Assembly: GCF_016097555.1 (NCBI RefSeq) | Contig: NC_054701.1 | Location: forward strand, 62,957,543-63,021,542 | Reading direction: 5' to 3' | Source: Gigantopelta aegis | Taxonomy: Eukaryota > Mollusca > Gastropoda > Neomphalida > Peltospiridae | DNA length: 64,000 bases | Part shown: positions 38,110-44,100 of the stretch, one piece after another | Position numbering within the stretch: position 1 is the first letter of the stretch | Layout of the letters: each line of letters begins with the position of its first letter | The notes under the pieces: model-generated | Database searches by the model: none | What the model saw: the letters and a program-made list of their open reading frames with translations, nothing else | What the model was told of the DNA's origin: nothing | Translations under genes and position numbers: made by a program

Positions 38110-41100
38110 TCATTTAGGTACTGACACTTTGTATCCCTTTGAGTCTGCCCACACTTTTAACAGTTCATCCTGTTTTGTGAGCTGACTTTCATATTTGGCA
38201 ATTAATGAATTCAGCTCCTTTATCATTTGGTCTTTGTGTCTTGCAGCCGAGTCAATCTTTTCCAACTTGCTTGTTAGCACTGTGCAGTTTGAACAATGAC
38301 CCTGAAGAGAAAACTTTAGCTAAAATATACATGTAAAAATAGATTTAAAAAAAAAATATTAAACAAAACTAGATATGATTTTTTTTTTTTTTTTAAATAT
38401 TAAACAAAAAATAGATATGAATTTTTTTTTTTTAAATATTAAACATTTTTTTTTTTAATACAAACAATAATGTTTCTCTAACTAGTTAAACCACAGGACT
38501 GTGTGATTGTACATGATTAACAATTAGGAAAATTAAAAAAAACTTTTATTCTGCTAACAAAATTTACAACCAGCCCCTCAACCCCTGTATTACAGTTCCA
38601 CTTAAAGTTTTGACAAGTTATTCTGACAAAAACGATAAATGGCAAAAACTGTTCAACGAGTCCCAAACTTCATGACACGTATACAAACCTGTTTGGTTTT
38701 AGAGTAAGACTTGAGTTTAATTCTAAGCATGTCTGACTCATCCTGAAGTCTGGCTAATTCTTTAGTAAGTTCTTCTAGTTGTTGTTGTCTTTCCCTACAA
38801 AATATACGGGGTTCAATATTATACATGTGTAACAGCATAGCATCATAATTTGAAAGAAAAAAGAAAGAAAGAGAAAGTTCTACACACAAATTTAAATTGT
38901 AAAGGAAAAACATTGATGTGAATATAAGAATTAAATTCAACTCTTAGAATGTCACTATGTTACCCAAGCTGAATGCCAGACCATTCCTAAATTAAAATAC
39001 ATGTAAGTACAAACTGTACAATAACATAAATCTAAGACATACAGAGAAATTAGACTGTTGAAAAGTACCAAGAATTTCCTTTCAGTGCGTCAGCCATTTG
39101 TAACTTGAGTCGGCCCAGCTTCTCATCTCTGATAACTATATCTTTATCTTTACTACAAATCGTTTCTTTCAGCTTTTCTATCTGAAAAATAAAATGCAAT
39201 ATTTATTTTGTTGTTGCATCTTATCAATTGGGTAGGGTTGTTGAGAAAAACTGGTGTGTGTGTGGGGTGGGGGGGATAAATATAAATCGTTATTAATACT
39301 GATAATGAAAGGCTGGTTACCATTTAAAATTTGAAATCTGCAATAAAATAATCCATTAATAATTGTGATTATTACTCACCAGTAAATAACATACAATTTG
39401 TTTTAGATATTCATTCATGTTGAACTCCAGCTGAGTTTTTCTGGGCTTGCTGTACATAATTCAACAAAGTCTTAAGGAGCCATTTACAATTAAATTGTTT
39501 TTATAAGAATACACTGGGGGAGGTGGTTAATGTCAGTATACACAGTGAAAAAATATTCCTTATAAAATTGACATTTTTGTTGTAATAAGCTTTTAGGAAG
39601 AGTTTGTACAACCTTAAAAAGGGTGATAATTGTGAACGGCTTCTAAATACATTGTATATGATTATACCTCATTTCTCAAACGTTCTACAATGTATATGAT
39701 TATTATACCTCATTTCTCAAGCATTCTACAACGTATATGATTATTATACCTCATTTCTCAAGCATTCTACAACATATATGATTATTATACCTCATTTCTC
39801 AAGCATTCTACAACGTATATGATTATTATACCTCATTTCTCAAACATTCTACAACATATATGATTATTATACCTCATTTCTCAAGCATTCTACAACATAT
39901 ATGATTATTATACCTCATTTCTCAAGCATTCTACAACGTATATGATTATTATACCTCATTTCTTAATCATTCTACAAAGTACATGTATATGATTATTATA
40001 CCTCATTTGTCAACCATTCTACAACGTATATGATTATTATACCTAATTTCTCAACCATTCTACAATATAGTATATACCTCATTTGTCAACCATTCTACAA
40101 TATAATATATACCTCATTTGTCAACCATTCTACAATATAATATATACCTAATTTGTCAACCATTCTACAATATAATATATACCTAATTTGTCAACCATTC
40201 TACAATATAATATATACCTCATTTGTCAACCATTCTACAATGTATATGATTATTATACCTCAACCAAGGGCGAGATGTAAAACACTCGCTTGATGCACAG
40301 TCAGTTTGGGATCGATCCCCATCAGTGGGCCCATTGGGCTATTTCTCGCTCCAGCCCTGTTACCACAATTGGTACATCAAAGGCTGTGGTATGTGCTATC
40401 CTGTCTATGGGATGGTGCATATAAAAGATCCCTTGCTGCTAATCGAAAAGAGTAGCCTATGAAGTGGCAACAGCGGGTTTCCTCCCTCAATATCTGTGTG
40501 GTCCATAACCATATGTCTGACGCCATATAGCCGTAAATAAAATGTGTTGAGTGCGTCGTTAAATAAACTATTTCTTTTCCTTCCTTTCATTTCTCAACCA
40601 TCTACAATATATATGATTCTACCTCATTTGTCAATCATTCTAGCACAATGACGTTATAGAAAGGTGGTAGAAAAACCGTCTACCACATGTGTGTAGACAC
40701 TAATCCGCCCTTTTCATTGGTTAATATTAGGATGTACACAACAGTTGCTACCGGTTGATTACGTAATTTTCGTCTTCTCGACACCACTGTATGCTTTCAC
40801 ACTCGTGACGTAACATGGGTGTCAGCTTAGAGGTGACGTCACGTTACAAAAATAAAATGAAGAGACTTACAGTATAGTTAGACTAAATTAATAATAAAAT
40901 TTATAAGACAGGTTGTGCTAGAAAATATTTCTGGCACTCGTCCTTTTCTATATGGTTTTTCTGACACTCGTCTCAAGAAAATCAATCCATGGAGCTCGCT
41001 AAAGCTTGCTCCAAAGATTGATTTTCTTGAGACTCGTGTCAGAAAAACCATCTACAAAATGACTCATGCCAGAAACTATTATTCTACAATGTATACAATT

Positions 41101-44100
41101 ATTATATACATGTACCTCCTCTCTCAACCGTTCTATTTCATTTGAATGGTCCTCCTTTAGGGCATGTATCACACAATTTAAACTGTTTATCTTCTCGTTA
41201 GACATCTCTAGATGTTTCTTGGTGTCCTCATGTTTCATTGTCTCCAATTCTATAGCAGCTGCATGCTGTTTCATCTGAAAATATTCATACAAATACATGT
41301 ATTAAAAATTATAAGAATTATGAATACATCTTTTTGGGGGGAATATTTAGTTTGCTGTTTCCCCAAATTATTATATATAATATTCATCCAAGTTACAATT
41401 GAATAAAAATGCATTAGAATAAATATGAAAAACAGATGATTTGAGAATTTACATGTTTCATGGATGAATTGATGCCTTTTTAATTTATGTGACACATTTT
41501 TAAAATCTGAATATGGCTGTAGGGTTTGGGTTTTTTCATTCCAGAAAATGCCAGCTGGGACCTGTTGCCACCGCATAGGCTACTCTAATGATATTTTATC
41601 CCACAATCACTGTATACATTGGCAAGATATGATGACTAGATAAATCTCTATATTTTTGGTCACTGACGAAAAATATAGGTCACGTGACAAAAGCCCAAGT
41701 ATTTCAGAGTAGATTTTCAATAAACATACTCTTTAAATCATTTGTTGAAGTGCTGTAAATACAAAGAACTTTAAGTTTTGCGATAACAATACTAAACTTG
41801 TATAAAATTACGTCACGCATCTTGTATGACGTCATACGACAAAAGCCTTACTAGGTTGACAATACTCGATTTGCGAACACAAAACTGGAATAAATAATAA
41901 TTTTCCGAATATTCCTGTAGAATTGCAGGATAAAAGAAATAACTGGTTACTGGCTTAAGATATCGGCTGTATCCTGCTCAGGACGAATGGCGAATGTAGC
42001 TCGGAATAGCCTCTTTGCATTCGTCATTCTAACCTTCGCAGGATAAAGTCGATATCTTAAGACAGTAACCAGTTATTTCCTATATATCAAACAGTAAGCT
42101 ATTTGTTATATGCACTTTCCCACTGACAGACAAATATATATTACAGCAAAAACTTTGATCCTGAGCTATATTATTTTTCCCCTATTTTGTAATCATTTCA
42201 TCTACAACTACAATTAGTACTGCATGTATAAAAGTGTATGACTGGATTAAAAAAAAATTGTATTGACTGTTTAATAAAAGTGTTTTTTTTTTAATAGTAG
42301 ATGATCAACTGTTTAATTACATGTAACATAAGTGCCAGGCGGCTTAAGCAGGAATGACTATCCCACAAAATAAAAAAATACCTTCAAGATAAACAATTCA
42401 ATGTTAATTATATTTTTTTTCAATTATTCTTTCCAGATATTCATAATACAAAACCTCCCAAAGGCAATATTCATGTACACACCACATTCATGATGAAAAT
42501 AGCTTCTAGCCCACAATGGAAACTGCTTTTATTATCACTATTAATAGCACAGTCGTTAATAGTTTTATTTGGGAATATTCAATTCAGTCTTCTTACGTGC
42601 TCTGGAAACTAATCACACTTCAGCTGAATAAGCCTGATTGTGATATAATAACAGAGACTTCCTCATAGTATTATATTTGAGTATTCTGACCGAACAAGTC
42701 TTGTGAAACGACCCAATATAGATTTTCCATGTGACTGGTTCTGATCTAAATATCTTCGATTACAGCGTTTCTCAACCGGTGATGCGTGACACACAAGTAA
42801 ACCATGTTGACCAATGTGTACGAACCATGACTCTTTAATTTTGTAACACATACATATACTTCTATTTAAGTCAATTTTACTTAAAATTAGTTAAATGTTT
42901 ATATTGATCAATTTGAGGGGAAGAAATTAAGAAATACAGTGAAACCTGTCTAAACCGGATCAAGCCAGGACCTATTATTTATCCAATTTAGACAGATCAA
43001 CTGAGCAACTCTAGTGTTTCGAGTGTTGCGTTTTACAATCTAGACAATTCGGGACCATGAAACTTGGCCGGTTTTGACAAGATTCCAGTTACTTGAGGGT
43101 CTGGTTTGGACAGGTTTCCCTGTATTTCCGTTGACCTAGGGGACTAATAGCCTAGAAATGTTATTGGTGCCCATGAAGAATTACTAGTTTTCCTCCACAC
43201 ACACCCCACCACCCTCCATTATTGGCAGGAAACATGACAAATATTTAACATAATTAGTTTCCAGAATTGAAAATAAACACCCAACAAATTGTATGACTGC
43301 ATAATAATCAAACTAGAACATATATAATTATGTAACATTCCTAGAGGTCTATAGCATCATTTAGTTTTAAACTGTACACATCCCCAGCAATTCCTATAGT
43401 CATGGTGTTCAAACAAGGGTACCGGTGAGGTACATGATACGCCCGTCAGGAGTTTGATGGAAAACCATAGATATTAATGATTATGTTACGGGTATGATTC
43501 AATTCTAATTATGTGAAATTTTTGCAATGGGATGAACAGTTTGTTTTGGACCAACTACTGATGATACTGTATCCATTGGAGAAGATGCTGTCTGATTAAT
43601 GAAGTTATTGTTCTTTAATTAGAAAGGGAAATTTTGTTTAGCATGGGTAATCTGTAGTTACGGTATTGTAACAGAAACGTTTCAGTTACCGTTACAGGAT
43701 ATGGATGCCATTTCTTCGTAGCAGCACCGCCACAGATCACAGCGGCACATTTCCCGCCAATATCATTGCACGTATCGTTCAAATAAAGTGGTAGTTGTAT
43801 ACATATTTAAGTTTCTTCACGACTGACAATTATCAGGCACCATAAAGATGTCTTATGTAAGCCCTTAAAATTCGCAATGTACAATATCATCTGGCTGTTC
43901 TTATCCCTTTACTACCATGTTGGTTGTAAGTAGTTTCCTCCGATATCTTCTTCGGAGCACCGCAGAAACTGCGTCGAGTAATATTTGTTTTTACATATAT
44001 AAAACTATTTACTAACTGTAGGTATTTTAAAACCATATACTGTCCGAGACGAGCTCATGAGGAATATTTTGCTATCACTAATAGTAATTAATACAGTGTT

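Follow-up and report, generated by a model that had tools for sequence, protein, structure and literature searches.

The window analysed here, a stretch of 64,000 nucleotides from the gastropod Gigantopelta aegis, contains a coiled-coil gene on its minus strand. The gene model joins six exons with AG/GT borders into an open frame that is 1005 nt long and encodes 334 aa. The predicted product is a coiled coil with no dependable family assignment, and the gene was left unnamed. Its Pfam matches were all below the cut-off, the best being to the coiled-coil family CCDC92 (20.3 bits against a required 28.3); exon 3 alone had no match in Pfam, and the protein had no match in the PDB below E 0.27. 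No paralogue was found in the genome search, as all six protein matches fell within this same gene. Exon 3 is in phase 0 at both borders and its end is coding and in frame; in the gene model, the donor at 41115 preserves the reading frame into exon 4. The intron that follows exon 3 carries a minisatellite and two insertions. The features are as follows.

41116 to 41274, minus strand: coding exon 3 (159 nt, in phase 0 at either border) of the coiled-coil gene model; its translation ends ...EIERLREE
41085 to 41133, minus strand: unit 0, made up of 18 nt of exon end and 31 nt of intron start with the true donor GAG|GTACAT; putative source of the array
40638 to 41081, minus strand: dispersed repeat element with the ends TAATAG...GTGCTAGAA and a long internal foldback, lying as an insertion between units 0 and 1
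40587 to 40637, minus strand: unit 1 with the beginning of unit 2, on the upstream side of the SINE-like repeat, 85% match to the array
40276 to 40593, plus strand: SINE-like repeat inside the array (approximate ends); more than 12 further partial copies lie elsewhere in the window
39661 to 40262, minus strand: main array (TRF), with units of 35, 41 or 47 bp that carry TTGTAG and AG|GTA
39641 to 39685, minus strand: last headed unit and array end; head 18/21, the nearest to the exon end; unit truncated, whole-unit score 35.0
39069 to 39181, minus strand: coding exon 4 from the gene model, the next exon 3' of the array-bearing intron

TRF described the main array as a 41-bp consensus repeated 15.3 times at 91% matches, plus a block of a 35-bp variant. 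With units of 35-47 bp, the array has the unit size of a minisatellite. The units are ordered as five of 35 bp, then one of 41 bp, one of 47 bp, seven of 41 bp and a last, incomplete unit. Approximately 1.5 further units sit beyond the SINE-like repeat, outside the main array. Downstream of the junction, 17 copies were counted. The main array contributes 15 units with a head, another unit precedes the SINE-like repeat, and that repeat splits the remaining one. The initial annotation had estimated about 15-17 copies downstream of the true donor; the locations it gave for the array and the junction were confirmed.

The dinucleotide pair AG|GT is retained in all 17 units downstream of the junction. 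The columns GAA and AAAT are also invariant, and the constancy of AG|GT, being shared with them, is what is expected of a homogenised array. The head of the unit reads GAATG in 15 of the 16 units parsed and GAACG, as in the exon, in the last. The array terminates with ...ATACAATGTATTTAGAAGCC, the exon counterpart of which is AAATAGAACGG. Among the 16 tails parsed, six read ECLRNE, four EWLTNE and one ERLRNE, and five contain a stop. The proposal that every unit carries an ERLRNE tail thus held for the last unit (GAACGTTTGAGAAATGAG) and failed for the other 15.

The exon-3/intron-3 junction has the sequence GAACGGTTGAGAGAGGAG|GTACATGTATATAATAATTGTATACATTGTAGAA. When the 41-bp consensus, extended by a 12-nt wrap, was compared with the junction, 45 bases were aligned, of which 38 were identical, with one gap of 8 bp and a score of 45.5. 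The highest score among 2000 dinucleotide shuffles of the junction was 33.5, and 2488 further 100-bp windows from the 64 kb did not exceed 26. A cyclic comparison of junction and unit scored 51.5, and none of 1000 letter shuffles rose above 31.5. For a single consensus unit the margin was narrow (37.5 against a maximum of 36.0 in 2000 shuffles of the unit). The 15 real units, taken singly, scored between 26.5 and 42.5 against the junction, with the penultimate unit highest and the 35-bp units at 26.5-31.5; the stretch that holds unit 1 was weak (24.0).

When the junction was compared with the real DNA of the whole main array the score was 52.5. This comparison bears on the possibility that an AT-rich repeat and an intron start, which is also AT-rich, are alike by chance. 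Across 2000 letter shuffles of the junction chance likeness peaked at 40.5, and across 2488 other 100-bp windows at 35.0, short of the observed value. It is disfavoured by the controls run, and also by the register of the junction with unit 1 (see below), and is considered extremely improbable. The similarity of the array to the junction is real and extends well past the TTGAGA core. The earlier suggestion that each unit holds an exon-tail-like piece, a donor-like GT and the start of the intron is upheld by the whole-unit alignment and by AG|GT in 17 of 17 units, and the alignment check that had been proposed alongside it, unit consensus against junction and shuffles, placed the score above every shuffle and window tested.

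The register of the array could be read only after the dispersed element had been discounted. This element returned at least 76 match rows in the genome (the best 40 of 496 candidate places were scored), and its ends were mapped from ten loci, its own locus among them. The left end, TAATAG, was present in all ten, and the right end, GTGCTAGAA, was identical in the eight loci where the pattern matched; in the other two of the ten loci read, there was no pattern match for the right end. Over the longest stretch of alignment, the intronic copy was 94-98% similar to the other nine that were read, which suggests that the element was inserted later than the array. Removal of 41081-40638 gives the empty site ACATTGTAGAA|TGATTGACAAATGAGG, which continues like the array's own ACATTGTAGAATGGTTGACAAATGAGG. 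No clear target-site duplication was seen at the element, so this empty site is accurate to a few bases only. As the empty site is in register, unit 1 continues from the junction, and the junction takes the place of unit 0. The first repeat is thus the true exon end with its 5' splice site, contiguous with the others only once the dispersed element is discounted.

The 1.15-Gb genome was searched for further copies by BLAST and with a unit pattern, and no second array cluster was found, in a search that skips very common words. With up to one mismatch, the unit pattern gave 29 matches, 15 at the array locus and 14 single ones elsewhere. The backwards pattern, used as a control, gave eight, fewer than the 14 scattered forward matches. 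Of these 14 loci, the five that were read lacked any second unit core. BLAST matches of the array elsewhere had best E-values of 1.9e-10 in C5 and 6.4e-7 in C15. The array read backwards gave comparable matches (best E 6.7e-10, ten rows in four contigs), the C5 match being slightly better than the best of these, and homology of the intronic array to the C5 and C15 arrays was rejected as chance. A dispersed satellite family was likewise rejected, as the same unit was not found at many loci and the weak matches were comparable to the backwards control.

The array at C15:46155006-46160712 is 5.7 kb long, and AGAACGGTTGA occurs both in its 40-bp unit and in the exon. This unit scored above all of its 1000 shuffles against the 35-bp unit (38) and against the junction (35.5), and against the 41-bp unit 208 of 1000 shuffles were as good. 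A genome search with the C15 array yielded nothing beyond that array and a weak hit on the intronic one. On these comparisons a remote link between the two arrays is conceivable, though the likeness was judged to be chance after the backwards control.

The minisatellite very probably arose when the gene's own junction of exon 3 and intron 3 was expanded in tandem. This origin, which the initial annotation had put forward, is well supported by the whole-unit similarity, the register with unit 1 and the restriction to a single locus, although it is still a matter of inference. The direction, from junction to array, rests on evidence internal to the locus. For the duplication mechanism, the order of the length changes and the use of the splice sites, we infer the following course. 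A 49-bp segment that extends from GAACGG in the exon to ACAWTGTA in the intron (41133-41085) would have been copied next to itself. Such a duplication, with an overlap of the 2 bp TA, would account for the unit border unaided; a TA of 2 bp at the presumed breakpoints is too short to serve as proof of the mechanism. Slippage or unequal exchange could then have raised the number to approximately 17 copies, which were homogenised. An 8-bp loss would account for the 41-bp unit, and the 35-bp units would stem from one more variant. The dispersed element would later have parted unit 0 from unit 1, and unit 2 would have been interrupted by the SINE-like repeat. Being first in the row and keeping the frame, the original exon end and donor probably stay in use, and the donor copies further down are probably pseudo-5' splice sites that are passive and would generate nonsense.

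The same similarity and register would also result if the array had been present first and the exon end had been recruited from it, by extension of the exon into a unit. Against this order of events, the hydrophobic spacing of the coiled coil (I, L, I, L, I in EIERLREEIEKLKETI), as judged by eye, continues over the border, and removal of the six residues ERLREE would displace it by six. In addition, the exon's GAACG recurs only in the last unit, which fits an old state kept at both ends; its presence in the exon and in the last unit is expected if the ends of an array keep the older state. The last unit is nearest to the exon in its head alone, since among whole units the penultimate scores best. 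Recruitment of the exon end from a pre-existing array is accordingly thought unlikely, and the expansion of the junction is the preferred reading.

RNA folding was also compared between the junction and the array. From the donor's T onward the junction RNA forms a predicted hairpin of -8.6 kcal/mol (z -2.47), with 4 of 200 shuffles as good. Nothing outstanding was obtained for the array stretch tested (z +1.11), and an RNA structure common to junction and array was therefore rejected. The hairpin at 41133-41085 might mask the donor or promote slippage of the strands.

A direct precedent for the expansion of a splice junction is found in intron 7 of human F7. This intron holds 37-bp repeats, the first of which contains the true 5' splice site and is followed by highly homologous repeats; splicing is reported to occur normally at the donor farthest upstream and at no other (PMC6627357, a review). 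The likeness lies in a tandem repeat within an intron, with units of about the same length and a first copy that holds the true 5' splice site. The gastropod array differs in having lost 8 bp and in being several bases off its source, and in the mobile element that stands between unit 0 and unit 1. The two genes are linked by resemblance alone, the gastropod case being known from the sequence of one assembly, and the intronic array would be best filed as another, independent case of the F7-like kind. In human segmental duplications, expansion of minisatellites with units of 30 bp on average at exon-intron boundaries alters gene structure (PMC2812944). Those repeats vary between paralogs and have transcript support, whereas no paralogue was found for the coiled-coil gene. 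In fission yeast, 24-bp repeats, tandem duplications with AG|GT, are implicated in intron gain (PMC4974935). Both systems have tandem copies with AG|GT; a new intron is formed in the yeast, and the gastropod copies lie inside an existing one. Intron gain by AGGT tandem duplication was rejected for the present locus, as the copies are within one intron of the gene model, between exons 3 and 4.

The kind of repeat is thus already known from human F7. In the gastropod gene the likely source copy of an intronic minisatellite is pinned by a coding exon, which provides a readable case of where such arrays may arise, and the two insertions supply a partial order of events. The array could also serve as a natural test of splice-site choice among many near-copies.

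The intron contains 18 AG|GT sites, of which 17 are in the array, and the downstream repeats do have donor-like sites. By sequence, the array could possibly act as a row of decoy donors, as had been suggested. Donors were scored with human matrix values. On this scale the true donor scored +0.54, the fourth of 121 intron GTs, and the AG|GT donors of the array scored from -3.2 to -0.06. The donors of the other four spliced exons scored 2.5, 3.8, -3.3 and 1.7, so the scale separates used from unused sites poorly. In U1 duplex energy the array donors (-5.6 to -6.6) and the true donor (-5.7, the 18th of 121 GTs) were about equal.

A stop codon, TAG at 41001-40999, lies before every array donor, and each extension of exon 3 into the array meets it. 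The main array offers 105 acceptor-donor pairs of up to 400 nt, 30 of which have a length divisible by three, and none of these 30 is open in phase 0. Use of the array donors would therefore give nonsense transcripts, which contradicts the further proposal that the array could yield in-frame variants. In the gene model, reading frame alone favours the upstream, true donor.

On top of an origin from the junction, the array donors might conceivably work as a reserve of decoy or backup 5' splice sites, the copy number of which tunes expression through unproductive splicing. This would agree with the retention of AG|GT in every downstream unit, with the near-equal U1 duplex energies and with human F7, where downstream cryptic sites are used once the first is mutated (PMC6627357). 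The AG|GT columns are, however, no more constant than GAA and AAAT in this homogenised array, the array donors score below the true donor with the human matrix, and a far better donor lies elsewhere in the intron (CTGGTGAGT at 39379, +7.6 on the same human matrix, the top score in the intron and outside the array). Such a functional reserve is considered improbable, and a decoy function is not favoured. A more specific form, in which array length acts as a dosage knob by spreading U1 snRNP over 17 self-derived weak donors beside a weak true donor, with unproductive splicing that depends on copy number, would be more doubtful still.

The donor at 39379 on the minus strand (CTG|GTGAGT) lies downstream of a possible acceptor, TGTACAG|CAAGCC, at about 39450. 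The stretch between them contains, by eye, a TGA in phase 0, and could be an unproductive alternative exon.
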